Shown: one piece after another, positions 7,412 to 35,486 of the stretch
Layout of the letters: every line of letters begins with the position of its first letter
How positions within the stretch are numbered: the stretch's first letter is position 1
Assembly: GCF_902764455.1 (NCBI RefSeq)
Contig: NZ_CACWVY010000042.1
Coordinates: 1 to 40,716, forward strand
Direction: 5' to 3'
Source: an uncultured Methanobrevibacter sp.
Lineage (GTDB): Archaea; Methanobacteriota; Methanobacteria; Methanobacteriales; Methanobacteriaceae
DNA: 40,716 nt
Made by a program: the position numbers and the translations under genes
Notes under the pieces: generated by a model
Told to the model about the DNA's origin: nothing
Seen by the model: only the letters and a program-made list of their open reading frames with translations
The model's database searches: none

Positions 7412-7441
7412 TTTTATGTCTAATTCCCCACTATTATTATT

Positions 7442-8701: not shown

Positions 8702-8710
8702 TGAAACCAC

Positions 8711-11142: not shown

Positions 11143-11143
11143 C

Positions 11144-11400: not shown

Positions 11401-11501
11401 CAACTCTCCAAAATAATTTTAATTAATTAATGATTTAATTTTTAAGTTATATATAATTAATAGCTACTTTTTCTTTTCATGAATAATTATTTAAAATATT
11501 T

Positions 11502-11672: not shown

Positions 11673-11976
11673 CATGATTATATTAAAAAAATAGTTCAAT
11701 TTAATGTCTTATTGCAGAGAAAACTCCACAATATTCCCACAGACATTAAATCCATTTCATCTCATAGAGGATTACTAAAAGTAACTCTCTTGTGTAATAA
11801 TTTATGGAATGTTATATATAAACTTAATTATTTTTTAAAATTGACGATTAAATAGTGGGCATCTCAAGGGAAAAAGCCTTCACGAAAATATAACATAATT
11901 TTCAAATGACCATCATTGATAATTTTTGATTTATATCTAATCGCCTAAAATAGAGGTGAAACTAAGAGAATTATCT

Positions 11977-12063
11977 TCAAATATTATTGAAATACCAAAT
12001 AGCTTTAATTATTGAAATAAGATTAAAACTATAAGTTCCAATTGTGAAGAGAATTAACTCCAT
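11977..12063 (-). CDS. Possible 28-aa hydrophobic small protein
   Basis: ATG at 12063 preceded by a near-perfect ribosome binding site, GGAGGTGA, ending 5 bases before the start. The product begins MELILFTIGTYSFNLISI and is hydrophobic. The site is stronger than that of most real genes in the window, but the frame is short and lies in a decayed stretch, so it may be the start of a lost gene. Confidence 0.3.
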   Translation of the reverse strand: MELILFTIGTYSFNLISIIKAIWYFNNI

Positions 12064-12164
12064 GTTCTCACCTCCAGAAGATGAAATGATGGAACACCAT
12101 AACAGTTGTAGGAAAAACCATTACAATTAGCAAATAAATACCTGTTAAAAATAATGAACATCAT
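12054..12164 (-). CDS. Possible 36-aa small protein, perhaps frameshifted
   Basis: ATG at 12164 with GGGGGTGA about 8 bases upstream. The frame opens MMFIIFNRYLF and then becomes Cys/Asn-rich. In another frame the same DNA reads LLIVMVFPTTVMVFHHFIFW and stops, which looks much more like a membrane helix. A frameshift near the start would turn this into a one-helix membrane peptide. The frame overlaps the start of the next small frame. Confidence 0.25.
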   Translation of the reverse strand: MMFIIFNRYLFANCNGFSYNCYGVPSFHLLEVRTWS

Positions 12165-12341
12165 ATCTATTCACCCCCATTTTTATTGAAGGCCTTTTAA
12201 CTACACATATATTCTTTAATATCCAATTTAAAGTTTGTTGAAGTTACTTTGTAAAATTGTCGTGATAAAAACATCAAATATATAGTTTACAGTGAAAATT
12301 AAATCTAAAAATAAAAAATAATTACAGTGACCTAGTTTTCA

Positions 12342-12490
12342 TGTCAATATAACTAGTCCACTAACCTCTTTTACAACATCGAATTATGCAACTTTTGGTT
12401 CTTTTTAACTAGCTTCATGTTGAGTTGGCATAACGCACTTTAAATTATCTACTACTTTTAGTGAAATTTGTTCGACACTATACGAACAAA
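12342..12490 (-). repeat. Decayed repeat, copy C with internal deletion
   Basis: Aligns with copy A on both sides of a gap: TTTACAACATC is joined to ATTATGCAACTTTTGG, about 43 nt shorter than in A, so the reading frame is lost. It shares the flank ATCTACTACTTTTAGT with copy A. Its end carries a perfect 8-bp inverted repeat (TTTGTTCG, 8-nt loop, CGAACAAA; 12467-12490). Confidence 0.6.
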
Positions 12491-12556
12491 ATTAAAAAAC
12501 ACTATTTTCAGTAGTGAAATAAAAAGTAGTAGGAATTTTCAATACTATTCACATAA

Positions 12557-12805
12557 CAATAATTGCTTGTCATCAAGTTTATAATAATTTAAGCATCTTA
12601 TCATACAACTTTTCCAATAATGCTCAAGTAGTTACATTTGTGTCATTATTTGGTTCAAGTTGTGGCTGTGATTATAGTACATGCTCAAGATTTGTATTTT
12701 CACCAGCTCCAATTATAGATGAAAATATCTAATAACAATAGATTCTAAAAAAAGTAGTGTTAAGAGAACAAAAGTTATACAACTATCACATGAGTTTTCA
12801 TATAA
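12557..12805 (+). repeat. Long direct repeat, second copy
   Basis: Partner of 11144-11400, in the same orientation, 1.4 kb downstream. It differs by scattered substitutions and small indels, so the duplication is not recent. Confidence 0.7.
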
Positions 12806-13059
12806 TCCCCTAATATTTTACATTTATAATATCCTCATGAATTTAACTGTTTCATTTTTGTTGAGAAACTCTACTTTATCCAACCCAAATATTTAAAAAA
12901 AAGCTTATTTTTTTATTTGAACTTATTTACATGGTTATTTTTACATTTTAAGATGATAGTAAGCACTTACATTCGAAAACATTTATATATGTCCCATTTA
13001 CATATTAAACAGTAGATATTATTCAATTATACTAAATGAATTAATAGGAGAGGTTAAAT

Positions 13060-13716
13060 ATGAAAAAAACAATATTTGTACTATTCTTTTTAACAATTGT
13101 ATCCATAGGCATTGCAAGTGTATCTGCAAGCGACAATGGAACAATGACAGACGCTTCAATACAAACTATCGATTAACAACACATAAGTGTTGATACCAAT
13201 GAAACAAATGAAAATCATTTGAACGATAATTCAGTACAAGAGGACAACAATACCATAACCAATAACTAAAACACCGCCATTAATGGGGATAATGTAACAG
13301 TAAATGATGTTAAACCAGTGGAAAAAACTGCCGAACTAAACATTACCGGTCCAAAAAAAGGAAACGGCATTAAAATCAACGGTCCAAAATTACCTTCCAA
13401 CGGTCCGAAAATAGAATTTACCAAAATGGAAAAAGACATATTTCATTTTGCTAAAGTTTTCCGTGAAAACATCGACTGGACCCACTATGGTTTCATGTAC
13501 TATGTTTTAAAAAATACAGACTGCACCCATTATACCTGGAAACAAGTTGCATTAATCATTGCACGCGCACACAACATCGCTATCGACCATAGTCCAGATT
13601 GGTATAAATCAGGAAAAGGATGGTCTAAAACTAATTTAACTGATGATGAGGTATATTATGAGATTATGAAGCATGCATGGTTCTTTAAGAAAATAATGTA
13701 CTGCCCTACAGAATAA
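13060..13716 (+). pseudogene. Secreted protein gene interrupted by two in-frame TAA codons
   Basis: ATG at 13060 follows a clear GGAGAGG ribosome binding site. It opens a typical signal peptide (MKKTIFVLFFLTIVSIGI, then ASVSA for cleavage). The frame stops at TAA 13174-13176 (codon 39) and again at TAA 13267-13269 (codon 70). It otherwise continues without any shift to the TAA ending at 13716, 219 codons in all. The 132-codon open part from the GTG at 13318 has short Gly-Pro-Lys repeats and then a Trp/Tyr/His-rich domain (DWTHYGFMYYVL, HAWFF). I do not recognise the domain. Each stop is one C-to-T change from CAA (Gln). The gene has its own terminator hairpin. It is most likely a recent pseudogene; readthrough cannot be excluded. 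Confidence 0.65.
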
Positions 13717-13765
13717 TCGTCTTTGACGACAACAACAGGGCTTAAAAATGTGGAAAATTCTTGAA

Positions 13766-13802
13766 AAGAATATGATAAACAAATATCATATTCTTAATAC
13801 TT
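13766..13802 (+). terminator. Hairpin terminator after the secreted gene
   Basis: A perfect 12-bp stem (AAGAATATGATA at 13766-13777, pairing with TATCATATTCTT at 13784-13795), a 6-nt loop, then TAATACTTTTTTT. It would end transcription of the plus-strand secreted gene before the convergent tRNA. Confidence 0.65.
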
Positions 13803-13816
13803 TTTTTAAAATTAAG

Positions 13817-13888
13817 TAGTCCCGAGCGGAGTCGAACCGCTGTCTTTGGGTCCAGGGCCCAAAAGGATTGCCGCTACCCTACGGGACT
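13817..13888 (-). tRNA. tRNA-Gln (anticodon CUG)
   Basis: A 72-nt cloverleaf: acceptor AGTCCCG pairs with CGGGACT and the discriminator is A. The D stem is GGG/TCC, the anticodon stem TTGGG/CCCAA, and the T arm AGCGG-TTCGACT-CCGCT. The loop is CCCTGGA, giving anticodon CTG at 13853-13855, which decodes CAG. Position 33, normally U in all tRNAs, is C here (13856 on the plus strand is G). CCA is not encoded. A TATA-like TTTAAATACATTTA lies roughly 20-35 nt upstream (13908-13921). Confidence 0.92.
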
Positions 13889-14236
13889 ATGCAAATATTC
13901 AAATGCTAGAATAAATGTATTTAAAGTTAATTTCTAATTAAATACTAATTCACTAAATATATATTAAATTAGCGAATTTATATAGTTTTTGTTTGAAATA
14001 AAAGTAATATTGTCTAGTTAAAATAATAATTCAATACAAACAACTTTTGAATGACTTCTTGTTGCTGTTTACATAATACTACCAAAATTGTACCTTTATT
14101 TGCATATTTGTCCATATATCTAAACTAATTTCATGTAAAAATCAAATATCTACTCACCAGAGTTAAAAAGATAATCTTTTGGATTTGCTAATGCCCCCAA
14201 CAGAATTAATATACTGCTTTTAATATACAGTTATTT
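13889..14236. other. Intergenic region upstream of tRNA-Gln and acetyltransferase
   Basis: Holds the tRNA promoter and repeat E (13909-14088). Near 14205-14212 it holds TTAATATA, about 25-30 nt before the acetyltransferase ATG and probably its TATA box. No gene is seen. Confidence 0.5.
13909..14088 (+). repeat. Repeat E, upstream region of tRNA-Gln
   Basis: Partner of repeat D (11502-11672). It includes the tRNA promoter and ends with CTTGTTGCTGTTTACATAA, related to the ends of copies A-C. Confidence 0.55.
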
Positions 14237-14809
14237 ATGTTAAAATTAGATGAACTTTTAAAGATTTTTAATGAAGGAACAGAATTGGAAATGGATGAAG
14301 ATGCTGCTGAAGCATGTAACTATTATTCTCAGGAAGCGCAAAAAATCACCTGTAAACTTAATTATGAATATCATGATCTTGATGAAATTAGACAGCTGTT
14401 TTCCAAACTAATAGATACTGAAGTCAGTGATGATTTCAGGGTTTTTCCGCCGTTCACAACTGATTTTGGAAAAAACATTCACCTTGGAAAAAATGTTTTC
14501 ATCAATTCAGGATGCCGATTCCAGGATCAGGGAGGAATCTACATAGGCGATAACGTTTTAATTGGTCATAATGTTGTTCTGGCTACTTTAAATCATAATG
14601 AAAATCCTAAAATGAGAGGTAATTTAATCCCATCGCCTATCATCATAGGCAATGATGTTTGGATTGGTTCCAACGTTACTGTAATTCCCGGCGTAACTAT
14701 TGGTGAGGGAGCAATTATTGCTGCTGGAGCGGTTGTCACAAAAGATGTTGCAAAAAATACAATCGTCGGAGGAGTTCCTGCACGATACATTAGAGATATA
14801 AAACTTTAA
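14237..14809 (+). CDS. Hexapeptide-repeat O-acetyltransferase (maltose/galactoside type)
   Basis: A 190-aa protein of the left-handed beta-helix acetyltransferase family, which moves acetyl from acetyl-CoA to a sugar hydroxyl. The N-terminal helical cap (residues 1-65) is followed by hexapeptide coils: [25 protein letters not shown], and [19 protein letters not shown] at 141-159. The end GGVPARYI is the standard CoA-binding C-terminus. H120 in TLNHNEN fits the catalytic histidine of the family. No Shine-Dalgarno precedes the ATG, so the transcript may be leaderless. It lies upstream of and convergent with the NRPS operon, about 280 nt from the MATE stop. Peptide tailoring is possible, but a sugar or cell-surface substrate is the default. 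Confidence 0.88.
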
Positions 14810-14983
14810 ACCGGTTTTCATATTCAAAATAGAAAAATATTCTGAATTTAATTTCATCTTGAATATTTTACGGAATTCTCTCCATTGTATTTTTATTGAA
14901 ATTAATGCAGTTATAATTAATTCTTCAATATATCACAAATTTACCTGTGTTGAATTAAATTTCAATTCAAAGAAAATATAATC

Positions 14984-15097
14984 ATGAAAACAAAAGAAAA
15001 AAAAGTAAAATTAACACCAAAAGGCATTAAAAAACTGATGAAATATTTAAACACATCAAAAAAATATGGGAAATATAAAGTAGTTATCACATATTGA
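14984..15097 (+). CDS. Possible 37-aa lysine-rich small protein
   Basis: An ATG-TGA frame that begins MKTKEKKVKLTPKGIKKLMK and is very basic. There is no convincing ribosome binding site. The last 11 nt overlap the 3' end of the MATE gene on the other strand. The composition fits a small nucleic-acid-binding peptide, but an AT-rich region produces such frames by chance. Confidence 0.3.
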   Translation: MKTKEKKVKLTPKGIKKLMKYLNTSKKYGKYKVVITY

Positions 15098-16766
15098 TTA
15101 CATACTCTACATTATTAAATCCCAATACTTCGCTAACTTTGACGTTATCTTGTGAAAATGATTTTTCAATATCTTTTAATACTTCCCTTTTTCCTTCATC
15201 CTTCATATTGATGCTAATTTTATCATCATAATCAATCAGCAATATTTCCACATGCACTTTTCCATTGTTTGAATCGAAAATAGTGTTTATTATCTTATCC
15301 AATGTTTCAATAGATGAACTATCCGCATTCAAACTCTCTAGATGATTGAACATTTCAGATTTCGCATCATCATTTTTGCTTTCTAAAGTGTAATTTCTAG
15401 TTTTTTCTATTAATCCCTCTCTAATGAAAAACAGACCAGAATATTCGTTATCCTTTCTTTCAACTATTTTTACATAAATGACAACAGCAACTATCGCTAG
15501 AACAAAACCTAACGGAAAAGATAACCAAACACTTGTGATGCCAATGTAAGGATATAATAGGTATGTAAACATTAACGGTCCTAGAAATTCTGAAATGATT
15601 GTAATGATTCCGGATTCCACAGTTCTTTCAATTCCTTCATAATAAAACAACAACATAGTTGAAAATGTCATAGGTATGAATGCAAACGAGTATATCCTAA
15701 TCGCATTTTCTACTAATGAATCATTAGGCATTTGGTGAAGTTTGAAAAACATTAATAATCCATCAGGATATACTAACAGAAATACCGTGAATATCAGTGC
15801 ACAGGATAATGTAATTATAAGTGAATTTCGCACAATATGATGCAGGTTATAAAAATCATTTTGCGCATAATAAATAGGAACAATGGAAGATAATGTTTCT
15901 GCAAATCCCATGATTAAAATACTTATTATCAACAATGCAGACACACATACATTGAATATGTCCAAACCTAATTCTCCTAAAATTCCACCAACAATTAAAT
16001 TCATGACATAAATCAATAATACATTAAAAAAACCCATACTTGCGCCCGGAAGGCCTATTTTAATTATTTCAATTGTTGAAGTTATCCAAGTTTTGAATTT
16101 CAATTTGGATAAAATGAATCTGAAAGTTCTTTTTGAATCAAAATGATATTTTAAAGTACACAATATTCCAACTATGTAACCTATCAACATTGCAAGTGAT
16201 GCTCCTTCAATGCCTGTATGAAGAACACCAAGGAAGACATAATCTAAAATTATATTGATGATATTTACTAGAATAATTACTCCTGAAGCAAAATTTGGTT
16301 GCCCATCAACACGAATAAACTGACATAAAACTCCTAATATAGTCGCAATTGGGAAACAAAGGAATAAAAATACACCATATGCGTTTACGTAAGGTAGTGC
16401 TCCTTCAGGCGGATGCAATATATTAATTAATGGATCTTTAAATAAAAAGCATACCAATAAAATCAAAATTGACAGAACTATTGTTGCAAGCATTGCAGTT
16501 GTGAAATAATGATTACTTCCATCCTCATCAAATTCCGCCTTTTTATTTAAAGCTAAAATTTGACCTCCTAATCCAAATAACCATTCAAATATTGTAATTA
16601 ACAATACCAAAGGTTCTAAAACCTGTAAAGCCGCTTGAGCATTGTGTCCGATGAATGTTGATACAAAACTTGCATCAACAACTGAAGCTATGTTTAAAGC
16701 CATTGCTATAAGTAATGACGGCAACAACAACTCCCTGAATTTATGAGTTATAATTTCATTTGACAT
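15087..16766 (-). CDS. MATE-family exporter with C-terminal ATPase-like extension
   Basis: Encodes 559 aa from the ATG at 16766. An in-frame GTG at 16775 is part of the AGGTGA ribosome binding site, which itself follows the NRPS stop codon at once (TAAAGGTGA). Translation is therefore coupled to the NRPS. Residues 1-450 have the 12 spans of a multidrug and toxin extrusion protein (LLPSLLIAMALNIASVVDA in the first span, GFAETLSSIVPIYYAQ at the second half). Residues about 455-559 are soluble and end in HVEILLIDYDDKISINMKDE and EVLGFNN. This resembles the HATPase of anti-sigma/RsbW-type kinases, but the usual N-box is not clear. It probably exports the NRPS product. The soluble domain may tie export to a partner or signal. 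Confidence 0.85.
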   Translation of the reverse strand: MSNEIITHKFRELLLPSLLIAMALNIASVVDASFVSTFIGHNAQAALQVLEPLVLLITIFEWLFGLGGQILALNKKAEFDEDGSNHYFTTAMLATIVLSILILLVCFLFKDPLINILHPPEGALPYVNAYGVFLFLCFPIATILGVLCQFIRVDGQPNFASGVIILVNIINIILDYVFLGVLHTGIEGASLAMLIGYIVGILCTLKYHFDSKRTFRFILSKLKFKTWITSTIEIIKIGLPGASMGFFNVLLIYVMNLIVGGILGELGLDIFNVCVSALLIISILIMGFAETLSSIVPIYYAQNDFYNLHHIVRNSLIITLSCALIFTVFLLVYPDGLLMFFKLHQMPNDSLVENAIRIYSFAFIPMTFSTMLLFYYEGIERTVESGIITIISEFLGPLMFTYLLYPYIGITSVWLSFPLGFVLAIVAVVIYVKIVERKDNEYSGLFFIREGLIEKTRNYTLESKNDDAKSEMFNHLESLNADSSSIETLDKIINTIFDSNNGKVHVEILLIDYDDKISINMKDEGKREVLKDIEKSFSQDNVKVSEVLGFNNVEYVINM

Positions 16767-16777
16767 GCTATTCACCT

Positions 16778-19700
16778 TTATTCAAAATAATCAAATTTAT
16801 TTAAATATTCAAATAATCGTTTAAGATACAATTTATCAGGTTTAGGCCAATCAAATCCTAATGATTGAAGAATATCAACAGTTTGTTCAATTTCTACATT
16901 TTCCTCGAAATCATCTTCTTCATCAAAGTCATCAATTGAAAAATCAGCAGTGATAATGCCTTGTATCTTCTCATTAATGTTATGTTTATAAATCTCTTTA
17001 AATATTTCGAAACCAACTTCAGAAATTCCATAACCGAATATATTTAATGCATCGATAATATCCCTATGGGAAATATAATGATTATTCATACAATGGAATA
17101 CTGTGGATTTCTCTGGAGTCTTAGACAATGCAAGTACTGCTTTTGCAACATAATCGATTTGACTCATGTCAACCTTTTCATTAGCCATTGTAGGATTCAT
17201 TGCCCCTAGTTTTTTAATGGTCTTTATGTTATTTAAAAATGCATTTGTATCATAGTTTTTCTGGAACATACCATCGGAGTAACGGCTCATCAAGTTTCCT
17301 ACCCTAATTATTTTTACTGGAAGTCCTTTAGTCGCCGCTTGTAAAACTGACCTTTCAGCTAAAAATTTACTGCATACATATTTATTTTCCAAATCCTGTC
17401 CGTAATATAATGTTCTTTCACAATATTCCTGATTTGGATATTCCTCTTCATTTAAAGAGTATGATGAAAGAACACTAATTGTGGATATTTGCACATATTT
17501 TATATTATTCCTTGTTTGAGCAAATTTAAGTCCATTGATTACACCATCGACATTTACCCTAAATATATAATCATCAGCAGTATAATGTTTTACAAGTGCC
17601 GCTGAATTTATTATTGTATCAATCGGTTCATTCTCAAGTTTTTTAAAGTCATCAATTTCAGTTATGTCCCCTTCGATTAAGATGATACGTGATCCGATTA
17701 AATCAGTGAAATCTTCATCAAAGTAATAATTCATCAAATCAATTAACCGGTCTTCACAGGAATCAAATTTGCCTTTCCTTAACATACAATAGATTTTTCC
17801 TTTCTCATTTTTGATGAATTCATATAGGATATGGATTCCTAAAAATCCTGTAGCCCCAGTCAATAGGACATTGCCCAATTCTAGGTTTTCACCATTAAAG
17901 AAGTTTTCTAAGGTATTTTCTTCGAGAAGTTTATTGATTTCATCATAATTGTAGTTTTTGATGATGTCCTCTTCTATATTCAACTCCTCTTCGGAATCAC
18001 TTTCTCCAGACAATAGTTTCGCTAGTGCTTTAGGAGTTTTCTTCTTGAAAATATCATCATATCTTACAGTATATCCTTGATTAAGCAGTTCAATGATTAA
18101 TTTTGATGCGATAAGTGAGGTTCCTCCAATTTCAAAGAAATTATCCTCTGCACCAACAGTTTCTATATTCAATATAGATGAAAATATTGCACAAATTTCC
18201 TGTTCAAGTTTTGTTTTTGGCGCCACATAATTCAAATCCAATTTTGGTTCAGGAAGTTTTTTAGTATCAGTTTTTCCATTTGGTGTTTGAGGCATTTCAT
18301 CAAGCTGCATGAACACAGTCGGAATCATATAATTAGTAAGACGGTCTTTTAAAAACTCTTTTAAATCATTACTATCAATTTCGCAATTAGCAGTGTAATA
18401 TGCACATAAATGATCAACATTGTTAATCTCTCTAATTACAACAACAGCCTGCCTTATATCTGGATATTGACCAATATTAGTTTCGATTTCACCAATTTCT
18501 ATTCTTAAACCTCTTAATTTTATCTGATTGTCTATTCTTCCTTTAATGTCGATTTCACCATTCGGAAGTTCAATAGCATAATCTCCACTCTTGTAATATG
18601 GAATGTCATTGATAGTTAAGAAGGATTCTTTGGTTTTTTCAGGCATGTTGTAATATCCTTTTCCAACACTCATACCGCCTATGTATAATTCACCCATTAC
18701 TCCATTAGGGACCAATTTTCCATCAATATCACGAACTTCAGTGACATAATTGGTTAAAGGAGGGCCTACAGTTAAATTGTTTACATCAGTGACCTCTTTG
18801 TTGTTTGAGGTAATTGTTGTTTCAGTTGGACCATAACTGTTATAGACAACTGCATCACTGTATTTTCTTAAATCTTCATAAACTTTAGCTGAAAATTGCT
18901 CACCACCAAGGAAAATACATTTTAAACAAGAAATTACATTACAGAATTCCTCTAATTCCAGATAAGATCCGATTCTTGAAGGAGTAATTTCTAAAACTTC
19001 AGGTTTATTTTCATCAATTAATTTAATAAGCTCAGGAACATTTCTGATTTGAACATCATCAGCCAATATCAATTTTAACCCATTTGAAAGAGAGGTCAAT
19101 ATGTCATCAACAGACACGTCAAAAGAGATAGTTGTAATACAAAGCAAACTATCATAAGTGGATTTAGGGTTTTGAGCCTGATTACAGATGTTTTTATGAC
19201 TAATCATCACACCTTTAGGATTACCAGTGGATCCTGAAGTATAAATCATATATGCCAAATCATCAGGACGAACATCAACATTCGGATTGACAGTATTTTC
19301 CTCTTCAAGAAGTTCATTGACATTTATGGAATTATCAGAAGTCTCATAGCTTATGATGTAATCCGCCTGACTGTTTTCATAAATGTAGTTGATTCTTTCC
19401 TGAGGATATTCCGGATCAATAGGAACATATGCAGGAACATATGCGCAGCCCGCTTTCAGGACACCTAAAATAGAGGTGATTAAATTACTGTCCCTTTTAA
19501 GCATTATAAGGACATTGCTTTTAGGTTTTACTCCACGCCTGATTAATGCATTTGCAATCCTATTACTTTTCTCATTCAGCTCAGCATAAGTTAAAGTAGC
19601 ATCACTTGCAACCAATGCCACATCTTTTGCTTTTTCAACAACCTGTTTCTCAAAGCGTTTATGTAAAATCGGAGTATCAATTTCTTCAAATTCTGGAATT

Positions 19701-22700
19701 TCCCCTTCAACCAATTCAATGTCATTTATTTTTAGCTTATCCATATCATTTACAAAGAATTGGAATAATATATATTTAATTGAACGCACGAACAGATTAA
19801 CATACTCTTCAGTATAGATTTGATCATTATATTCCAGATACAGGGTAATAAGTTCCCCATCATCATAAATATCCATGTTTATTTTATAATCAGTTGAAAC
19901 AGTACCATCAAGGTCAATTGCTTCATAAGACCTACCATTAAGTTCAATGTCATTCTTTAATGATTCATGGAATGCATAGAAGAATTCCGGTTTTAATTGA
20001 TACTCTTCTGAAAGTTTTGTGTATGGATAATCGCTATGAACTAATGCATCTTTCCATGCTTTATCAACAATTTTTATGTAATCTTCAACCATCATGTCAC
20101 GATTTTCACCGTTTACAATAACAGGCAATGTCTTAACCAGCATTCCCTGTGTATTGGAGTAATTGGAATTTGCCCTACCGTTGAATATTGTTGTAATTAA
20201 TGACTTACCACTAAATGTAAACTTATTAAGACTTAGAAGTGTAGCCGCCATAAATAAAACGTTTGAACTTATTGAATGATCTTTACAGAAGTGCCTGACA
20301 AAAGTAGAGCCCATTTGATCTGAAACAAGTTTAATATTTCCAATATCAGGATTACCATTAATATTTGGAGTTAAAACTGTTGATTCAATGTCTTGGCTAA
20401 ATTGTTTTTTGAAGAATTTCTCAGAAATCTCACTAACAGAGGTTTTCTCTTCAATCAGGCTGTATTCAAATCCGTTAATCTTTTCAGATTCTATTTCTTC
20501 ACCTTTATATGCTTTGGCCAAATCATTGAAGAAAATACCTTGAGATACCCCATCAGTAATGATATGATGGAAATCAACGAATAATATAGTTTCTGCTGGT
20601 GTTTTATAGATTTTAAATCTAAATAATTGATTATTGTCTAATGGAATTGGTTTTATGTCTCTCTCCATTATTTCTTCATTGCTAATGGAATCTATTTCAA
20701 CAATTTCTATTTCTTCAATTTCAGCATCATCGCATCTTTTTTGGAATATTTTTCCATCATCTGTATTAATAATTCTTGTTTTAAGATATGGATGCGCATC
20801 AACAGTTTTAATAACCGCATCTTTAAGTTTATTAGGATCAATGCTACTTTCAAACCTTAATGCAAAAGGCATAGTGTATTTGATTTTTTCAGTTTGCATA
20901 CACTCATAGTAAATCCCCATTTGGTTTGAAGTCAATGGGAAATATTCCATATCTTTTGCAGTCTCAATAATTTCATCCACATCTATTTCAGATTCTATAT
21001 TATTGTCAATTTTATCTGCAAGAGATTTGATTGTTGGATTTGTGAACAATGATGTTACATCAATATTAACATTCATTTCATTGAAAATCAATGAGTTTAA
21101 TTTCATTAATGTTAAAGAAGAGAAACCTAATTCATATAAATCATCTGTTGTACCGAATTTATTTGTATTGGCAATAGATGCAACAAGTTCAACTAATTTT
21201 TCTTCAGTTTCACCTTCAGCTTCAACATAATCCAGATTTAATTTTGGTTTTGGAAGTCTTTTAATATCTGTTTTACCATTTGGAGATATTGGCATCTCAT
21301 CAAGCTGCATAAATACAGTTGGAACCATATATTCAGTTAATTTATTTCCCAAATACCTTTTCAAGAGATTTATATCTATTTCTTCATCGGCTGTGAAATA
21401 AGCACATAAATGTTCAACATTATTGATTTTCTCAATTATAACAACAATCTGCCTAATACCTGGGAATCTGGCAATATTGGATTCAATTTCACCAAGTTCA
21501 ATTCTCAATCCCCTTAATTTAATTTGGTTGTCAATTCTTCCTTTTATTACCAATTCGCCATTTGGAAGTTCAATTGCATAGTCTCCACTTCTATAATATG
21601 GAATATCATTAATAGACAAGAATACCTCTTTGGTTTTTTCTTCCATATTATAATATCCTCTGGATACGCCTTTACCTCCAATGTATAATTCACCCATTAC
21701 ACAACAAGGCACCAATTTACCGTCAATATCCCTAACTTCAGTTATACAATTGTGCAGAGCTTTTCCAACAGTTATATTTTCAGCATCAGTAAGTTTTTTA
21801 GCATTACATGTTACTGTTGTTTCAGTTGGACCGTAAATATTATACACTTCTAAATCAGGATACTCTAAAAGTAGAGAAATTAAGTCTTGAGGCACCATTT
21901 CTCCACCAACAGCAATATACTTGAAGTTAGGTACTTGTTTGGAGAATTCCTCATATTCCAAATATTGTTTGAATCTTGATGGTGCGGAAAATGTAAGTGA
22001 ATCAGGTTTTTCTCTTTCAACTAACTCCGCCAATTCCTTAATATTTTTAATTTCACTATCGTTAGCCAGCACCATTTCCAAACCAAAGGTTAATGGCATG
22101 AAATCAAGTAAAAATGCATCAAAAGATACTGTTGAAAGAGCAAGTGTCTTTTTCATTTTTGAATATGCATTATAAATTACACTATCCTCACTTTTTGAGA
22201 ACAGATTTGTAATATTCATATGACTGGTCATTACTCCTTTAGGATTGCCTGTAGAACCTGAAGTGTAAATCATATAAGCCAAATCATTCGGATTAATTTC
22301 CACTTGAGGATTTGAAGTATTCTCCTCTTCAAGCAATTCATTAACATCGATTGAATTTTCAATCCTTCCATCAGATATTAAATAATCTGCCTGACTGTTT
22401 TCAAAAATATAATCAATCCTGCCTTTAGGGTAGTTAATATCAATAGGTATAAATGCACATCCTGCTTTTAAAACACCTAAAATAGCTGAAATAAGCTTGC
22501 TGTCCCTAGGAAGCATTACTAACACATTACTGTTAGCTTTGATTCCTCTGTTTATAAGGGCATTAGCAACACGATTTGCCTTTTGGTTAAGTTCACCATA
22601 TGTCAATGAAGCATCACATGCAACCAATGCAATGTTTTCCGGAGATTCATCGACTTGTTTTTCAAAGCGTTTATGGATAAATGGAATTTCCACATCAACA

Positions 22701-24109
22701 AATTCATGTGATTCAACATCATCTTTTAATTTAACATCACATATTCTGCAACTGTCAATATCATTTTCAAGGAATTGGGCTAAAATGTTCATCATGGATT
22801 GTATGAATGTCCTAACATAATTTTCACTGTATAACTGGTCATTATATTCCATGATAACATTAAACTCATCACCATTATCATAAATAGCCAAATTAATTTT
22901 AGATTCAACTGTAACCATATCAAACCCTGCTAATTCCTGTGGAATGTACTCTTTATTGTTTATTATAATTTCATCTGATTCCAGGAATTCATGATAATTG
23001 TAGAAGAATTCAGGTTTTAACTGATATTTCTCAGCAATTTTAATATATGGATATGCAGTATTTCTTAAGGTTTCTTTCCAAGTTTGGTCAATAGATTTAA
23101 TGAAATCTCTGACTGACACCTGCCTGTTTTCATTATTGATTATAAACGGAACAGTTTTTACCAAAAATCCTTGAGTATTGAAATAACTTGGACTTGACCT
23201 TCCGTTGAATATTGTTGTTATTAATGTTTTGTCACTAAATGTGAATTTGTTTAGATTTAAAATTGTGGTTGCGATAAACAAAGCATTTTTACTTATGAAA
23301 TTATCATTACAAAACTCATCAATTAATTCTGAATCAAAAGTATATGAAACATTTTTTGTTTTACCTTCATCAGGATTTCCATTAAGATCTGGAGTTAAAA
23401 CAGTGGATTCTATTCCCTGAGTTAATTTATCATCGAAAAATGCCTCTGCTGATTGATATATTTCACTATTTTCAGCATCTTTTTCCAGAATACTGTAAAC
23501 ATAACCATCGATTATTTCTTCAGACAAATCCCTATTTTCATAGATATCTGCTATATCTCTAAATAAATTGTTTTGCGATACCCCATCAGTAATTATATGG
23601 TGGAAATCTGAGAATAATACAACTTCATCAGGGGTTTCATATATTTTGAATTTGAACAATTGATTATCCTCTATAGAGATTGGACCAACGTCATTTCTAA
23701 CAATGTCTTCATCGCTAATGCTATCGACTTTAACAATTTCAATATCATCGATTGCCGCATCATCGCATCTTTTCTGTTTTAATTCACCATCATGATTTAC
23801 AAATCTTGTTTTAAGATATGGATGTGCTTCAATAGTATCAAGAATTGCTTGTTTAAGTTTATTTGCATCAACATCATTGCCAAATTTTACTGTTGTAGGC
23901 ATGGTATACTTAATCACATCCGGATTTTGCTTACATTCATAGTAAATACCCAATTGATTTTCAGTCAACGGATAATACTCCATGCCTTTAGCTGATTCAA
24001 TAAGCTCTTGAAGACCAGCCTCTTTTTCAGATGAATTGTCAATTTCTATTGCAAAGTTTTTAACTGTTGGCTCATTGAACAATATGGAAACGTCTAAATT
24101 CGCACCCAT
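16778..24109 (-). CDS. NRPS, downstream part: modules 3-4 with terminal thioester reductase
   Basis: 2443 aa. Residues 1-30 are the C-terminal half of the carrier domain cut off from the upstream reading frame. Then follow C3 (about 40-455, HHIITDG near 170), A3 (about 470-950, TSGSTG near 614), T3 (DDLYELGFSSL near 993), C4 (about 1020-1450, HHIITDG near 1180), A4 (about 1470-1950, TSGSTG near 1622), and T4 (FFEIGGTSL near 1994). The reductase R runs from about 2060 to the end, with Rossmann TGATGFLG near 2083 and YVCSK as the catalytic Tyr-Lys. The R domain would release the peptide as an aldehyde or alcohol using NAD(P)H. A4 has a 4-residue insertion (AYVP twice) in core motif A2. The ATG at 24109 has only a weak GAGAAA before it, and this gene is almost certainly the second half of a split gene. 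Confidence 0.93.
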   Translation of the reverse strand: MGANLDVSILFNEPTVKNFAIEIDNSSEKEAGLQELIESAKGMEYYPLTENQLGIYYECKQNPDVIKYTMPTTVKFGNDVDANKLKQAILDTIEAHPYLKTRFVNHDGELKQKRCDDAAIDDIEIVKVDSISDEDIVRNDVGPISIEDNQLFKFKIYETPDEVVLFSDFHHIITDGVSQNNLFRDIADIYENRDLSEEIIDGYVYSILEKDAENSEIYQSAEAFFDDKLTQGIESTVLTPDLNGNPDEGKTKNVSYTFDSELIDEFCNDNFISKNALFIATTILNLNKFTFSDKTLITTIFNGRSSPSYFNTQGFLVKTVPFIINNENRQVSVRDFIKSIDQTWKETLRNTAYPYIKIAEKYQLKPEFFYNYHEFLESDEIIINNKEYIPQELAGFDMVTVESKINLAIYDNGDEFNVIMEYNDQLYSENYVRTFIQSMMNILAQFLENDIDSCRICDVKLKDDVESHEFVDVEIPFIHKRFEKQVDESPENIALVACDASLTYGELNQKANRVANALINRGIKANSNVLVMLPRDSKLISAILGVLKAGCAFIPIDINYPKGRIDYIFENSQADYLISDGRIENSIDVNELLEEENTSNPQVEINPNDLAYMIYTSGSTGNPKGVMTSHMNITNLFSKSEDSVIYNAYSKMKKTLALSTVSFDAFLLDFMPLTFGLEMVLANDSEIKNIKELAELVEREKPDSLTFSAPSRFKQYLEYEEFSKQVPNFKYIAVGGEMVPQDLISLLLEYPDLEVYNIYGPTETTVTCNAKKLTDAENITVGKALHNCITEVRDIDGKLVPCCVMGELYIGGKGVSRGYYNMEEKTKEVFLSINDIPYYRSGDYAIELPNGELVIKGRIDNQIKLRGLRIELGEIESNIARFPGIRQIVVIIEKINNVEHLCAYFTADEEIDINLLKRYLGNKLTEYMVPTVFMQLDEMPISPNGKTDIKRLPKPKLNLDYVEAEGETEEKLVELVASIANTNKFGTTDDLYELGFSSLTLMKLNSLIFNEMNVNIDVTSLFTNPTIKSLADKIDNNIESEIDVDEIIETAKDMEYFPLTSNQMGIYYECMQTEKIKYTMPFALRFESSIDPNKLKDAVIKTVDAHPYLKTRIINTDDGKIFQKRCDDAEIEEIEIVEIDSISNEEIMERDIKPIPLDNNQLFRFKIYKTPAETILFVDFHHIITDGVSQGIFFNDLAKAYKGEEIESEKINGFEYSLIEEKTSVSEISEKFFKKQFSQDIESTVLTPNINGNPDIGNIKLVSDQMGSTFVRHFCKDHSISSNVLFMAATLLSLNKFTFSGKSLITTIFNGRANSNYSNTQGMLVKTLPVIVNGENRDMMVEDYIKIVDKAWKDALVHSDYPYTKLSEEYQLKPEFFYAFHESLKNDIELNGRSYEAIDLDGTVSTDYKINMDIYDDGELITLYLEYNDQIYTEEYVNLFVRSIKYILFQFFVNDMDKLKINDIELVEGEIPEFEEIDTPILHKRFEKQVVEKAKDVALVASDATLTYAELNEKSNRIANALIRRGVKPKSNVLIMLKRDSNLITSILGVLKAGCAYVPAYVPIDPEYPQERINYIYENSQADYIISYETSDNSINVNELLEEENTVNPNVDVRPDDLAYMIYTSGSTGNPKGVMISHKNICNQAQNPKSTYDSLLCITTISFDVSVDDILTSLSNGLKLILADDVQIRNVPELIKLIDENKPEVLEITPSRIGSYLELEEFCNVISCLKCIFLGGEQFSAKVYEDLRKYSDAVVYNSYGPTETTITSNNKEVTDVNNLTVGPPLTNYVTEVRDIDGKLVPNGVMGELYIGGMSVGKGYYNMPEKTKESFLTINDIPYYKSGDYAIELPNGEIDIKGRIDNQIKLRGLRIEIGEIETNIGQYPDIRQAVVVIREINNVDHLCAYYTANCEIDSNDLKEFLKDRLTNYMIPTVFMQLDEMPQTPNGKTDTKKLPEPKLDLNYVAPKTKLEQEICAIFSSILNIETVGAEDNFFEIGGTSLIASKLIIELLNQGYTVRYDDIFKKKTPKALAKLLSGESDSEEELNIEEDIIKNYNYDEINKLLEENTLENFFNGENLELGNVLLTGATGFLGIHILYEFIKNEKGKIYCMLRKGKFDSCEDRLIDLMNYYFDEDFTDLIGSRIILIEGDITEIDDFKKLENEPIDTIINSAALVKHYTADDYIFRVNVDGVINGLKFAQTRNNIKYVQISTISVLSSYSLNEEEYPNQEYCERTLYYGQDLENKYVCSKFLAERSVLQAATKGLPVKIIRVGNLMSRYSDGMFQKNYDTNAFLNNIKTIKKLGAMNPTMANEKVDMSQIDYVAKAVLALSKTPEKSTVFHCMNNHYISHRDIIDALNIFGYGISEVGFEIFKEIYKHNINEKIQGIITADFSIDDFDEEDDFEENVEIEQTVDILQSLGFDWPKPDKLYLKRLFEYLNKFDYFE
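19421..19444 (-). repeat. 12-bp perfect tandem duplication in adenylation domain 4
   Basis: AGGAACATATGC occurs twice in a row on the plus strand. The protein reads YVPAYVPID where the other adenylation domains read FIPID at the same place. Four residues are added in frame within core motif A2. Confidence 0.9.
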
Positions 24110-24123
24110 TTTCTCATAGATTA

Positions 24124-24151
24124 TGGAATTTAATTTCTGGAATTTAATTTC
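24124..24151 (-). repeat. 14-bp perfect tandem duplication that splits the NRPS gene
   Basis: TGGAATTTAATTTC is repeated exactly at 24124-24137 and 24138-24151. Fourteen bases shift the frame by two and bring the TAA at 24130-24132 into phase. Without one copy the frame reads MKLNSIIYEKMGANLD, matching the other carrier domains (for example MKLNARIYEEMGVNLD). The span 16778-29364 minus 14 is 12573 nt, exactly 4191 codons. Confidence 0.95.
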
Positions 24152-27100
24152 ATTAAGGACAATGAAGTAAAACCAATAGCGTATAAGTCATCTGTAACAC
24201 CAAATTCATCAACATCTGCAATGGATGAAACAATATCATATAATTTTTCTTCTGTTTCAGTTTCAGGCATCACCAAAGCCAATTTAAGTTGAGGTTCAGG
24301 CAGTTGTTTCAAGTCTGTCTTGCCGTTTGGTGTTTGAGGCATTTCATCAAGCTGCATGAATACTGTCGGAACCATATAATTAGTAAGTCTGTCTTTTAAA
24401 AACTCTTTTAAGTCATCAGTGTCAATTTCACCATTAGCTGTGTAATATGCACATAAATGATCCGCATTGTTAATTTCTTTAATTACAACAACAGCCTGCA
24501 TTATATCTGGATATTGGCCAATATTGGTTTCAATTTCACCTATTTCAATCCTTAATCCTCTGAGTTTAATCTGATTGTCTATTCTTCCTTTAATATCTAT
24601 TTCACCATTCGGAAGTTCAATAGCATAGTCCCCACTTCTGTAATATGGAATGTCATTGATAGTCAGGAAAACCTCTGCAGTTTTTTCCGGCATGTTATAG
24701 TATCCTTTACCTACACCAGTACCACCAATATATAATTCGCCCATTACACCATTAGGAAGCAATTTGCCATCAATGTCACGAACATCAGTAACATAATTGG
24801 TTAAAGGAGGACCAACAGTCAAATCATGCATATCAGTGACTTCTTTGTTGTTTGAGGTGATTGTTGTTTCAGTTGGACCATAACTGTTATAAATAACTGC
24901 ATCACAGTATTTTCTTAAATCTTCATAAACTTTAGCTGAAAACTGCTCTCCACCAAGGAAAATACTCTTTAAGCATGATATAACATTACAGAAGTCTTTT
25001 ACCTCAAGATAAGAAGCAAGTCTTGAAGGAGTAATTTCTAAAACTTCAGGTTTATTCTTATCAATCAATTTGATAAGCTCAGGAACATTTTTGATTTGAA
25101 CGTCATCAGCCAATATCAATTTCAACCCATTTGAAAGAGAGGTCAATATGTCATCAACAGACACGTCAAAAGAGATAGTTGTAATACAAAGCAAACTGTC
25201 ATAAGTGGATTTAGGATTTTGAGCCTGATTACAGATGTTTTTATGACAAATCATTACACCTTTAGGGTTACCTGTGGATCCTGAAGTATAAATCATATAT
25301 GCCAAATCATCAGAATCAACATTAACATCAGGACTTTCTGAATTGCCTTCTTTAAGGAGTTCTTCAATGTCTAAAGAATTTTCTCCAGATTCATTGGCAA
25401 TAATATAATCTGCATTACTGTTTTCATAAATATAATTTATTCTCTCCTGAGGATATTCTGGATCAATCGGAATGAATGCGCAACCCGCTTTAAGGATACC
25501 TAAAATGGAAGCAATCAAATTACTGTCCCTTGAAAGCATTACCAAAACATTGCTTTTCGGTTTGACTCCTTTATCTATTAAAGCATTTGCAATAACATTT
25601 GCTTTTTCATCCAATTGCTTGTAAGTCAATGTGGCATCAGTTGCAACAAGAGCAGTTTCATCACCTTTGCTGGCAACTTGTTTTTCAAAGCGTTTATGTA
25701 AAATCGGCATATCGACAGGTGTGAATATAGGTGTCTCTTTACTTTCACCCAATTCTATTTCACCAATGCTTAATTTTTCAATATCCTCCTCAGTTAATTG
25801 ATTTATTACATCAATTATGCAATTTAAGAAGGTGTCAATGTAATCATCACTGTACAACTGGTCATTATACTGGATAAACAATTCAATATTATCTTTGGTT
25901 TCATTAACATCAAAAGATATTTTATAGTTAACTTCAAGTGAATTCAAATATTTGACTTTATAAGTTTTACCATTAATCTCAATTTCTTCAGCGTCAAGAT
26001 TATTGTATGCATAGAAAAACTCTGGTTTCAATCCAAACTCTTCAGAAATCTTAGTATAAGAATAATCTGAATGATTAATGGTTTCCATCCAGATATCATT
26101 GACTGAATTTAAATATTCTTTAAATGATAATGTCCTATCATCATTGATTGAGACAATTGGGAGTGTTTTTACTAGCAATGCCTGTGTGTTGAGGTAGGAT
26201 GAGTTTGATCTTCCATTGAAAATAGTTGTAATCAATGTTTTGTCATTGAATGTATACTTATTCAAGTTCAGCATGGTTACTGCCATGAATAAGACATTAG
26301 GAGTTATCCTGTTTTCACTGCAAAACTTATTAACCAATTCAGGGTCGATATTTTTGGAAATTGATTTTAAAATTCCTTCTTCAACATTACCATTCAAATT
26401 AGGAGTCAGTACAGTCGAATCAACTTCTTGAGTTAATTTATCATGGAAGAATTCTCTGGATAATTTATATTTTTCACTGTTTTCATTCTCACTTTCAATT
26501 ATACTGTTAATGTAACCGTTGATTGTTTCTTTTTCAATTTCAATTCCCTGATATGCATTGGAAATATTTGTAAACAATTTATCCAATGATTCCCCATCAG
26601 AAATTATATGGTGGATATCTGAGAATAAAATTGTTTCACTAGGAGTTTTATAGATTTTAAATCTGAATAACTGGTCATTATGCAAATCAAACAGTTTAAG
26701 ATTTTCTTTTTCAATTTCACTATCTGAAATATTTTCAACATCAACAATTGGAATGTCATCAATATCTATTGAATCATCACGTTTCAGCATCACTTTACCT
26801 TTTTGTGCAACAATTCTGGTTTTAAGATAAGGATATGCTTCAATTGTCTTAATGATAGCATCATGTAATCTATCCGCATCAATTTCACTGCCAAATCTTA
26901 TGATAGACGGGAGATTATATTGTGCAACATTTCCACTTTGAATGCACTCATAATAGATTCCCATTTGATTTTCTGTCAATGGATAATAAACCATATCCTT
27001 AGCTGATTCCATTACACTATTCAAATCTAGAATATCATTGTTTTCTATTTCATTTGCAATATTTTTAATTGTAGGATCATTCAATAATGAAATAATATCT

Positions 27101-29364
27101 AAATTAACACCCATTTCCTCATAAATTCTTGCATTTAATTTCATCAGTGACAATGAAGTAAATCCGACAGCATACAAATCATCAGTAGTACCAAATTCCT
27201 TTGTTTTGCTGATGGATGAAGCAATTTCATGCAACATTATTTCAGTTTCAGTTTCTGGGAGTGTGAAAGACAATCTAAGTTGTGGCACTGGCAGTTGTTT
27301 CAAGTCTGTCTTACCGTTTGGTGTTTGCGGCATTTCATCTAGCTGCATGAACACAGTCGGAACCATATAACGAGTAAGACGATCTTTTAAAAACTCTTTT
27401 AAATCATTTCTATCAATTTCTTCATCGGCAGTGTAATAAGCACATAAATGTTCATTATCGTTAATCTCTTTAATTACAACAACAGCCTGTCTTATATTTG
27501 GATATTGAGAAATATTGGTTTCAATTTCGCCTATTTCAATTCTCAATCCTCTTAATTTTATTTGGTTGTCAATTCTTCCTTTAATGTCGATTTCACCATT
27601 TGGAAGTTCAATAGCATAGTCCCCGCTTCTGTAATATGGAATGTCATTGATAGTCAGGAACACTTCTTCGGTTTTTTCAGGCATGCCATAATATCCTTTA
27701 CCTACACTAGTACCTCCAATGTATAATTCACCCATTACACCATTAGGAACCAATTTTCCATCAATATCACGAACATCAGTGACATAATTAGTTAAAGGAA
27801 GACCTACAGTCAAATCGTTTACATCTGTGACCTCTTTGTTGTTTGAGGTGATTGTTGTTTCTGTTGGACCGTAACTGTTATAGACAACTGCATCACTGTA
27901 TTTTCTTAAATCTTCATAAACTTTTGCTGAAAATTTCTCTCCTCCAATGAAAATACATTTTAAGCAAGATATAACATTGCAGAAGTCTTTTACCTCAAGA
28001 TAAGAAGCGAGTCTTGAAGGAGTACAATCTAAAACTTCAGGTTTATTTACATCAATTAACTTGATTAAAGCAGGAATATTTTTGATTTGAGAATCATCAG
28101 CAAGTATCAACTTTAATCCATTTGAAAGAGATGTCAATATGTCGTCAACAGACACGTCAAAAGAGATAGTTGTGATACAAAGCAAACTGTCATAAGTGGA
28201 TTTAGGGTTTTGGACCTGATTGCAAATGTTTTCATGGCTAATCATCACACCTTTAGGATTACCTGTTGAACCGGAAGTGTAAATCATATATGCCAAATCA
28301 TCAGAATCAACATTAACGTTAGGATTTTCTGAATTGCCCTCTTTAAGCAGTTCTTCAATGTCTAAAGATTTTTCTCCGGATTCATTGGCAATAATATAAT
28401 CCGCCTGACTGTTTTCATAAATATAGTTTATTCTCTCCTGAGGATATTCCGGATCAATCGGAATGAATGCGCAGCCGGCTTTAATGATACCCAAAATAGA
28501 AGCAATCAAATTACTGTCCCTTGAAAGCATTACTAAAACATTGCTTTTCGGTTTAACTCCTTTTTTAATTAAAGCATTTGCAATAACATTTGCTTTTTCA
28601 TCCAATTGCTTGTAAGTCAATGTGGCATCAGTTGCAACAAGAGCAATTTCATCACCTTTCTCAATTACTTGCTTTTCAAAGTGCTTGTGAATCAGAGGCA
28701 TTTCAACTTCACTGAAGACAACATTTTCATTTTCACCGACAAGAGCAATATCGCAGATATTTGTTTTATCAATATTAGCATTAACTATTTCTTCAACTAT
28801 TTTTTCAAGGCTTGACAAGAATAAATCAATGAAATCTTTTGTATATAATTCATTATTATAAAATAAGGATAAACAAACAGTTTCATCATTTTCAACAATT
28901 TTTAGATAATTGGAATATTCTGCATTAGATTTTAAATCATCATCAAATGCATAATAAAATTCAGGTTTTAAAGGAAGATTATCTTTATCGAAGTATTCAT
29001 CGAATTCCAACGTTTTAACATAATTCTCATGAACATTTTCCAGAAATTCACTAATTGGCACTTGTCTGTTTTCAAATTTGTTTGCAAATGGAACATTATT
29101 TTGATTGAAAATTAAAGTTTCATCTGAAAAATTAAATTTAGTAAGTGTTAATGTTAAACTCGCCAATAAAAGCTCATTGATTGAAATTGAATTGGATTTG
29201 GCAAATCCTACTAAATTCTCTTTTTTAATTTCATATTCTGATTTATCAATTATACCTTTTTCTTTTTCTCCATTCCTATTTGGAGTAATTAAAGTTGTTT
29301 CATCAAAATCCAGACATAACTCTGACAAATATTCACTGAAAATATCCTTTGTTTTTTTATCCAT
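24130..29364 (-). CDS. NRPS, upstream part: partial C, A1-T1, C2-A2 and half of T2
   Basis: 1744 aa. Residues 1-210 resemble only the C-terminal lobe of a condensation domain; the HHxxxDG half is missing. Then A1 (about 225-700, TSGSTG near 362), T1 (GFTSLSLMKL near 734), C2 (about 785-1200, HHIISDG near 917), A2 (about 1220-1700, TSGSTG near 1358) and T2 up to its phosphopantetheine serine (near 1731). The frame then ends abruptly after NSRN. A1 and A2 activate amino acids as adenylates and load them on the carrier serines; C2 joins them. No phosphopantetheinyl transferase is in the window. The ATG at 29364 is preceded by AAGGTTTGAT. The protein lacks helices 3-4 of T2, so module 2 is unlikely to work unless the frame is restored. 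Confidence 0.93.
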   Translation of the reverse strand: MDKKTKDIFSEYLSELCLDFDETTLITPNRNGEKEKGIIDKSEYEIKKENLVGFAKSNSISINELLLASLTLTLTKFNFSDETLIFNQNNVPFANKFENRQVPISEFLENVHENYVKTLEFDEYFDKDNLPLKPEFYYAFDDDLKSNAEYSNYLKIVENDETVCLSLFYNNELYTKDFIDLFLSSLEKIVEEIVNANIDKTNICDIALVGENENVVFSEVEMPLIHKHFEKQVIEKGDEIALVATDATLTYKQLDEKANVIANALIKKGVKPKSNVLVMLSRDSNLIASILGIIKAGCAFIPIDPEYPQERINYIYENSQADYIIANESGEKSLDIEELLKEGNSENPNVNVDSDDLAYMIYTSGSTGNPKGVMISHENICNQVQNPKSTYDSLLCITTISFDVSVDDILTSLSNGLKLILADDSQIKNIPALIKLIDVNKPEVLDCTPSRLASYLEVKDFCNVISCLKCIFIGGEKFSAKVYEDLRKYSDAVVYNSYGPTETTITSNNKEVTDVNDLTVGLPLTNYVTDVRDIDGKLVPNGVMGELYIGGTSVGKGYYGMPEKTEEVFLTINDIPYYRSGDYAIELPNGEIDIKGRIDNQIKLRGLRIEIGEIETNISQYPNIRQAVVVIKEINDNEHLCAYYTADEEIDRNDLKEFLKDRLTRYMVPTVFMQLDEMPQTPNGKTDLKQLPVPQLRLSFTLPETETEIMLHEIASSISKTKEFGTTDDLYAVGFTSLSLMKLNARIYEEMGVNLDIISLLNDPTIKNIANEIENNDILDLNSVMESAKDMVYYPLTENQMGIYYECIQSGNVAQYNLPSIIRFGSEIDADRLHDAIIKTIEAYPYLKTRIVAQKGKVMLKRDDSIDIDDIPIVDVENISDSEIEKENLKLFDLHNDQLFRFKIYKTPSETILFSDIHHIISDGESLDKLFTNISNAYQGIEIEKETINGYINSIIESENENSEKYKLSREFFHDKLTQEVDSTVLTPNLNGNVEEGILKSISKNIDPELVNKFCSENRITPNVLFMAVTMLNLNKYTFNDKTLITTIFNGRSNSSYLNTQALLVKTLPIVSINDDRTLSFKEYLNSVNDIWMETINHSDYSYTKISEEFGLKPEFFYAYNNLDAEEIEINGKTYKVKYLNSLEVNYKISFDVNETKDNIELFIQYNDQLYSDDYIDTFLNCIIDVINQLTEEDIEKLSIGEIELGESKETPIFTPVDMPILHKRFEKQVASKGDETALVATDATLTYKQLDEKANVIANALIDKGVKPKSNVLVMLSRDSNLIASILGILKAGCAFIPIDPEYPQERINYIYENSNADYIIANESGENSLDIEELLKEGNSESPDVNVDSDDLAYMIYTSGSTGNPKGVMICHKNICNQAQNPKSTYDSLLCITTISFDVSVDDILTSLSNGLKLILADDVQIKNVPELIKLIDKNKPEVLEITPSRLASYLEVKDFCNVISCLKSIFLGGEQFSAKVYEDLRKYCDAVIYNSYGPTETTITSNNKEVTDMHDLTVGPPLTNYVTDVRDIDGKLLPNGVMGELYIGGTGVGKGYYNMPEKTAEVFLTINDIPYYRSGDYAIELPNGEIDIKGRIDNQIKLRGLRIEIGEIETNIGQYPDIMQAVVVIKEINNADHLCAYYTANGEIDTDDLKEFLKDRLTNYMVPTVFMQLDEMPQTPNGKTDLKQLPEPQLKLALVMPETETEEKLYDIVSSIADVDEFGVTDDLYAIGFTSLSLMKLNSRN

Positions 29365-31187: not shown

Positions 31188-31847
31188 ATGGCCAATTTTT
31201 GTACTAACTGTGGAAGTAAAATAAGAAAAGAAGATAAGTTCTGCACTAACTGTGGAACTAAAATAAGAAAAGAAGATAAGTTTTGCACTAACTGCGGAAC
31301 AAAATTAAGAGAAGAAGACAAGTTCTGCACTAACTGTGGAACTGAAAATGATAAATCAGATATAAAACCAGATAAACATTTATTTAACTCAGAACACGGC
31401 AGTTTGGAAAAAATATACAGAATAGCTAAAGAAAAAGAAAAAAAGAAAAAATTAAAAATAATTGATGAAATATTTGAATCAGAAGAAATCAGATTAGAAA
31501 TAATTAAAAACAATATCAACCAGATTAATGTAATTTCCATTAAAGATAATCTAAAAACTAAGTTAATCGATGAAAAAGAAAAAATGAGTGAGGAAGAAAT
31601 TAAATATTTCATAAAAACAGAATTAAAAAAAGCGAAAAAAGAACAAAAAGAAATTAGTAAAAAAATAGAAAAGAATGAACCAGTTCATGGAGGATATTGT
31701 AACTTGAATTGCAGACATTGCTACGAAGAATTTATGGATAGTGGAGGAGGGATAGTTGGTGATTTTGATAGTGAAGGATATGTTGAATATTATTGTGGTT
31801 TAGGACATTCTTTATCCTACGGGAGTTTTTGTAAAGATTATGAATGA
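31188..31847 (+). CDS. Multi-zinc-ribbon protein with C-terminal cysteine cluster
   Basis: 219 aa from the ATG at 31188, which follows GAGATGGTG. An upstream in-frame TTG at 31173 is less likely. Residues 1-55 are four near-identical 14-residue units of the type KFCTNCGTKIRKED, giving four CxxC knuckles that could bind two zinc ions. Residues 70-160 are Lys/Glu-rich and probably coiled coil. The last 55 residues hold CNLNCRHC, YCGLGH and a final FCKDY. CNLNCRHC copies the CxxxCxxC spacing of radical-SAM enzymes, but no barrel follows, so zinc binding is more likely. Function unknown; zinc-ribbon scaffolds of this sort are common in methanogens. Confidence 0.75.
   Translation: MANFCTNCGSKIRKEDKFCTNCGTKIRKEDKFCTNCGTKLREEDKFCTNCGTENDKSDIKPDKHLFNSEHGSLEKIYRIAKEKEKKKKLKIIDEIFESEEIRLEIIKNNINQINVISIKDNLKTKLIDEKEKMSEEEIKYFIKTELKKAKKEQKEISKKIEKNEPVHGGYCNLNCRHCYEEFMDSGGGIVGDFDSEGYVEYYCGLGHSLSYGSFCKDYE
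31197..31345 (+). repeat. 42-bp tandem coding repeats (zinc knuckles)
   Basis: About three and a half direct repeats of 42 bp encode the CTNCG units. The units are nearly identical in DNA (TGCACTAACTG repeated), so they are prone to expansion or loss. Confidence 0.7.
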
Positions 31848-34769: not shown

Positions 34770-35486
34770 TTATGCTTCGGAGTATAACAAACCAATAGCT
34801 CTATTGTAGAAGAATACAAAGTAAACTGAAAAAATACCTAATAAAATAGCACCAATGGTATTATTCATATTAGTAATTAATGCAAGGATAAATGCAACAA
34901 CTACTAAGATGATGACAATAACAAGAACAGTTCCAATGATTTTACCTAATCCTACTTTGGAAATGTCTCCAATAGCTTCTCCAATAGCTAAAGCATCACC
35001 TAAACTATCAGTTTTTGCTAATCTACATTTTGCCATAAAGTTAGCTAAAGCAAATACAATAATTAAAATTATACTGATTATGGCAAGTATCCAATCTCTT
35101 AGGAAAAGACCTAAAATTAAAATTATAATTGCAGGAACAACGTAATATACAATACTAACAACAATTAATTTTAAAGCATTGGAAATTTGTCTTCCAATAT
35201 CTATTCCAGGACTATCAGCTCTTCTTTCAATACCATATTTTATAATGTCCAAACCATATCCTTCAATCAAGAACAATACAAGAATAAAAACAATAATTCC
35301 AACAATAGTCAATCCGCTAAAAGCAAATCCAGCCATACCTTTTGAAGAGAATGAAGCTGCACTTGAAATTAGAGTTGCACCTCCAATAATTCCGGCGATT
35401 ATAGCTAAGATTGCATATAAAACTAATGCTTTAATATTACTAAATGGATATGCTATAGCATCTCCTATTATATCTCCTATACCCAT
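34770..35486 (-). CDS. DUF4013-type membrane protein
   Basis: 238 aa with about six hydrophobic spans. The N-terminus MGIGDIIGDAIAYPFSNIKAL and the central GYGLDIIKYGIERRADSPGID are typical of DUF4013 proteins, a family frequent in Methanobacteriales. The family has no assigned reaction. The ATG at 35486 has AAGGTGA about 7 nt upstream. It is monocistronic by spacing, with a T-tract terminator behind it. Confidence 0.85.
   Translation of the reverse strand: MGIGDIIGDAIAYPFSNIKALVLYAILAIIAGIIGGATLISSAASFSSKGMAGFAFSGLTIVGIIVFILVLFLIEGYGLDIIKYGIERRADSPGIDIGRQISNALKLIVVSIVYYVVPAIIILILGLFLRDWILAIISIILIIVFALANFMAKCRLAKTDSLGDALAIGEAIGDISKVGLGKIIGTVLVIVIILVVVAFILALITNMNNTIGAILLGIFSVYFVFFYNRAIGLLYSEA

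Follow-up and report, generated by a model that had tools for sequence, protein, structure and literature searches.

NRPS genes of the type considered here have been described from Methanobrevibacter: mru_0351 of Methanobrevibacter ruminantium M1 encodes four modules and has a MATE gene next door (PMC2812497), and IE19DRAFT_00420 of M. millerae ZA-10, with 4187 aa, is a close match to it (PMC4987999). The intact gene family of the mru_0351 type is already known, and the records encoding close relatives are nearly all from Methanobrevibacter, many of them from ruminants. The stretch of DNA analyzed in this work (the window) comprises contig C42 in its entirety, 40,716 bp in length, from the 85-contig draft genome G000, that of a Methanobrevibacter close to M. 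millerae. It carries a further gene of this type, which as given is broken into two frames by a short tandem duplication. We consider it likely that this break is absent from the organism, and that it stems from contig ends that were butt-joined with their short overlaps kept. The features of the window on which the argument is built are the following:

16778..29364, minus strand: the whole four-module NRPS gene, A1-T1-C2-A2-T2-C3-A3-T3-C4-A4-T4-R, interrupted as given (Pfam and NCBIfam models; intact 4187-aa orthologue in genome G003)
24130..29364, minus strand: upstream NRPS frame, 1744 aa, with A1-T1-C2-A2 and the first half of T2 including its serine
16778..24109, minus strand: downstream NRPS frame, 2443 aa, with the remainder of T2, then C3-A3-T3-C4-A4-T4-R
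17135..17863, minus strand: terminal NAD-binding domain of the thioester-reductase type, PF07993 (Pfam)
15087..16775, minus strand: MATE-family exporter directly downstream of the NRPS (Pfam; syntenic in relatives)
24124..24137, unstranded: first copy of TGGAATTTAATTTC; one copy is the ancestral state
24138..24151, unstranded: second, private copy of TGGAATTTAATTTC, not present in any of the 11 orthologous alleles; a contig seam is probable at 24137/24138
19421..19444, unstranded: a further exact tandem duplication private to G000, with two copies of the 12-bp unit AGGAACATATGC; it keeps the frame and adds AYVP to core motif A2 of A4

According to Pfam, the A, C and T domains and PF07993 are spread over both frames and make up four A-T modules, three condensation domains and a terminal release domain. 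Judging from the terminal PF07993, release of the peptide is predicted to be reductive and to give an aldehyde or an alcohol. Among curated NRPS models, AusA, the aureusimine NRPS (NCBIfam NF047350), scores best with both frames; its match in the second frame extends through the terminal domain, and the scores of the two frames, 789 and 1125 bits, are far under the curated cut-off of 2500. The first 228 residues of the NRPS (window 28680-29364) have no Pfam match and resemble a condensation domain in its C-terminal half. G003 has a similar protein start, and the N-terminus may possibly represent a truncated starter condensation domain. Elsewhere in the window, a 42-bp repeat array of 3.5 copies lies within a zinc-ribbon protein (31203-31349), and a 1207-aa protein with an nSTAND3 NTPase domain (237-3860) is possibly encoded by a defence gene.

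The two frames meet at TGGAATTTAATTTC, which is present twice, exactly and with no gap, at 24124-24151. On the coding strand the upstream frame reads ...GFTSLSLMKLNS and reaches a stop two codons on, while the other frame picks up with KLNSIIYEKMGANLD..., so that the break falls inside the carrier domain T2, with the phosphopantetheine serine in the upstream frame and helices 3-4 in the downstream one. The sequence description in the original prediction can be upheld: the Pfam domain layout and the frame positions agree with a four-module NRPS cut in T2, the exact gapless 14-bp copy does lie between frames of 1744 and 2443 aa, the frame boundaries part the serine from helices 3-4 as claimed, and removal of one copy leaves a span of 12,573 nt, i.e. 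the 4191 codons that had been announced. G000 as given has no single open frame of about 4190 aa, and this frame is intact in G003, G048 and G023. The 14-mer has no further occurrence in the 2.75-Mb genome G000. Two exact tandem duplications of 12-30 bp are observed in the NRPS gene, versus a mean of 0.017 in dinucleotide shuffles of the gene; their presence is not due to chance.

The original prediction had proposed a comparison of the locus in related strains. We searched 66 other genomes of the genus, together with named GTDB records, using a 1.7-kb query, and recovered 11 orthologous alleles from about 10 genomes, with 77-91% DNA identity over the query where scored. Every one of the 11 is exactly 14 bases shorter at the site and hence has one copy, and TTAATGAAATTAAATTC is nearly invariant in the segment. 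The two-copy string was found in no other locus, and neither the one-copy nor the two-copy string was found in viral contigs. Since all 11 alleles have one copy, one copy is the ancestral state and the second is private to the G000 assembly, which marks the extra copy as foreign to the gene. The nearest orthologue is the syntenic one of G003 (4187 aa, about 92% DNA identity), and G003 is probably ZA-10. In G045, the NRPS gene (L095 1021-19999) is in five frames, none of whose breaks is explained by tandem duplications; these breaks probably reflect collapsed modules in a fragmented assembly.

When the gene is compared with that of G003 over about 4180 codons, the 14-bp and the 12-bp duplications are the only indels. 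The latter, overlooked in the original prediction, falls in core motif A2 of A4, which with the AYVP insertion reads KAGCAYVPAYVPIDPEYP. This motif has 14 residues in 36 of 36 other variants taken from the window, relatives and paralogues, and the A4 copy alone has 18. Given how conserved the motif is, the insertion would probably impair the enzyme even if the frame were repaired. Another 12-bp exact repeat, at 34966-34989 in a DUF4013 gene, was considered as a member of the same cluster and dropped, as its orthologues are equal in length.

Both halves of the gene are under ordinary purifying selection. The dN/dS ratio versus G003 is 0.140 upstream of the break and 0.127 downstream. The G000 branch has counts of replacement to silent changes of 30.5:77.5 upstream and 47:97 downstream, compared to 27.5:77.5 and 39.5:117.5, respectively, on the branch of the intact G003 gene, with no difference between the branches (p = 0.88 upstream and 0.20 downstream). 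The gene does not have the marks of an established pseudogene: constraint is not relaxed, stop codons are absent, and the sole further lesion is the 12-bp duplication. A long-dead gene that had acquired two duplications should also have gathered substitutions, and none are seen in excess; both events are therefore either very recent or took place outside the organism. Identity to G003 is alike on both sides of the seam (88-95% in 500-bp bins), which led us to reject a chimaeric join of a foreign piece at this position.

The G000 draft contains other exact two-copy duplications:

L119 12191-12295 (contig C16): 52 bp, breaks a long frame that one copy would join
L163 11759-11868 (contig C43): 55 bp, breaks a long frame that one copy would join
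L150 980-1006 (contig C27): 13 bp, breaks a long frame that one copy would join
L146 19043-19106 (contig C23): 32 bp

In 1.30 Mb of G000 we counted four duplications whose collapse lengthens a frame by at least 60 aa, against none in 1.07 Mb of sequence used for comparison, nearly all of it from Methanobrevibacter; the numbers behind this excess are small. The frame-breaking duplications of C16, C43 and C27 sit in locally repetitive genes, whereas the 14-bp site does not; in genus-wide queries for those of C16 and C43 the repeats blurred the result and gave no clean copy count.

The structure of the assembly points in the same direction. In the contig ends examined, we found seven pairs with exact overlaps that had not been merged; these span 99, 97, 94, 90, 88, 64 and 62 bp, with no spare base. 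C40 and C55 (L099 1-300 and L098 1-300) share the exact 88-bp overlap head-to-head and apparently divide another NRPS gene between them; this overlap therefore indicates that the assembly does break within NRPS genes. The contigs are numbered by steadily falling size, apart from some much too long for their rank, which is the pattern expected of a scaffolder that seeds by size and then extends; the three N runs that were found are all in out-of-rank contigs (C8, C10 and C15). C42, with its 40,716 bp, is ranked between contigs of 17,348 and 14,618 bp, and on the scaffolder model it must therefore contain joins. If it is cut at the 14-bp seam, the part from 24138 on measures 16,579 bp and falls inside this slot. 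A slot is likewise fitted by C43 cut at the 55-bp duplication, C23 at the 32-bp one, C27 at the 13-bp one and C8 at its N-run join; C16 cut at its duplication finds no slot unless more joins exist. The probability of at least four fits out of five by chance is 0.006, a value calculated after the pattern had been noticed. The piece 1-19432 exceeds the slot size, and another, traceless join is therefore required.

We propose that in the organism the gene would be intact, an ordinary four-module NRPS like mru_0351, and that the assembler would have delivered contigs with overlapping ends. A scaffolding or gap-closing step would then have set two contigs end to end with the 14-bp overlap at 24124-24151 untrimmed, and this overlap, printed twice, would have shifted the frame in T2. 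The 12-bp duplication at 19421-19444 probably arose by the same process. We infer the identity of both positions as joins, as well as the kind of program responsible, from the one copy in all orthologues, the second private duplication, the lack of decay, the unmerged end overlaps, the scaffold-like order and the other two-copy duplications. Overlapping contig ends left unmerged are found in this very draft, and the seam is compatible with the piece sizes, the latter evidence being indirect. On the other hand, no long repeat lies at the 14-bp site (the closest exact repeat with a length of at least 20 bp measures 35 bp and lies at 24326, about 175 bp off), and the contig-end overlaps that survive are all longer than 12-14 bp. 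Our guess is that short overlaps were left unmerged through a minimum-overlap setting.

The second-ranked explanation, which we regard as possible though rather unlikely, is that replication slippage recently created the 14-bp tandem duplication in the strain and truncated the NRPS. The split in T2 would stop module 2 from passing its chain to C3, no tetrapeptide would be made, and the 12-bp duplication would have arisen in another recent event. The restriction of the duplication to G000 and the good conservation of the remainder are what a very recent event predicts, and spontaneous null mutations are known to include single tandem duplications, as exemplified by those of 26-116 bp in lrp of Xenorhabdus (PMC6786866). 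However, this explanation requires two independent exact duplications in one gene that is otherwise free of indels and whose constraint is not relaxed, and it would place them in a contig that must hold joins.

It is tempting to see in the duplication a reversible on/off switch, in which slippage between the 14-bp copies gains or loses one and turns the NRPS off or on, but we consider this very improbable. In its full form, in which cells with two copies are off, those with one make the peptide, and the whole serves as bet-hedging for secondary metabolism in a gut methanogen, the idea is equally hard to credit. Perfect adjacent copies are able, in principle, to revert, the otherwise intact frame with no decay is compatible with a switch, and random tandem duplications within capsule genes of pneumococcus are cited in PMC4022640 as having been reported as phase variation (Waite et al. 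2001, 2003). Nonetheless, no second state occurs at the site in any of the 11 orthologous alleles, and hence there is no copy-number polymorphism among relatives; there are just two copies of a unit that has no other copy in the genome; no finding speaks positively for population heterogeneity; and the in-frame AYVP insertion in A4 would probably impair the enzyme anyway. Finally, translation of both frames as working subunits, with ribosomes either reinitiating at ATG 24109 or undergoing a programmed frameshift where the frames overlap (24130 to about 24187), would agree with two long, constrained frames of which the downstream one is open back to about 24187, but can practically be dismissed, as the cut lies within a carrier domain and not between domains, none of the complete orthologues among the 11 alleles is split there, and ATG 24109 is preceded by no clear ribosome-binding site.

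Thus, the original prediction stands as a description of the sequence and in naming an artefact among the possibilities, and its caution that an assembly error would look alike has gained weight, with a join now favoured by the duplications elsewhere, the unmerged ends and the slot fit; its suggestion of a switch is not borne out, given one copy in all 11 alleles, two copies only in the window and no repeat polymorphism. The frame break is most likely not a real feature, and the gene family itself is a known one. Taken at face value, the break would wrongly enlarge the small set of archaeal NRPSs by one labelled "silenced" or "switchable", and exact two-copy duplications in the G000 draft should not be read as biology without the reads.

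The NRPS of the window resembles mru_0351 in its four modules, its large terminal domain and the adjoining MATE exporter, and differs in being interrupted, whereas both mru_0351 and IE19DRAFT_00420 are intact. The terminal domain of mru_0351 is a thioesterase according to the M1 genome paper (PMC2812497), whereas that of the window matches thioester reductase (PF07993). The AusA model NF047350 is shorter, with 2373 positions, and the two frames score well under its cut-off. With the pneumococcus capsule genes, as they are cited in PMC4022640, the window NRPS shares a perfect tandem duplication that in each case turns a frame off. There it was reported as phase variation, while in the window NRPS no second state is seen and an origin in the assembly is likelier.
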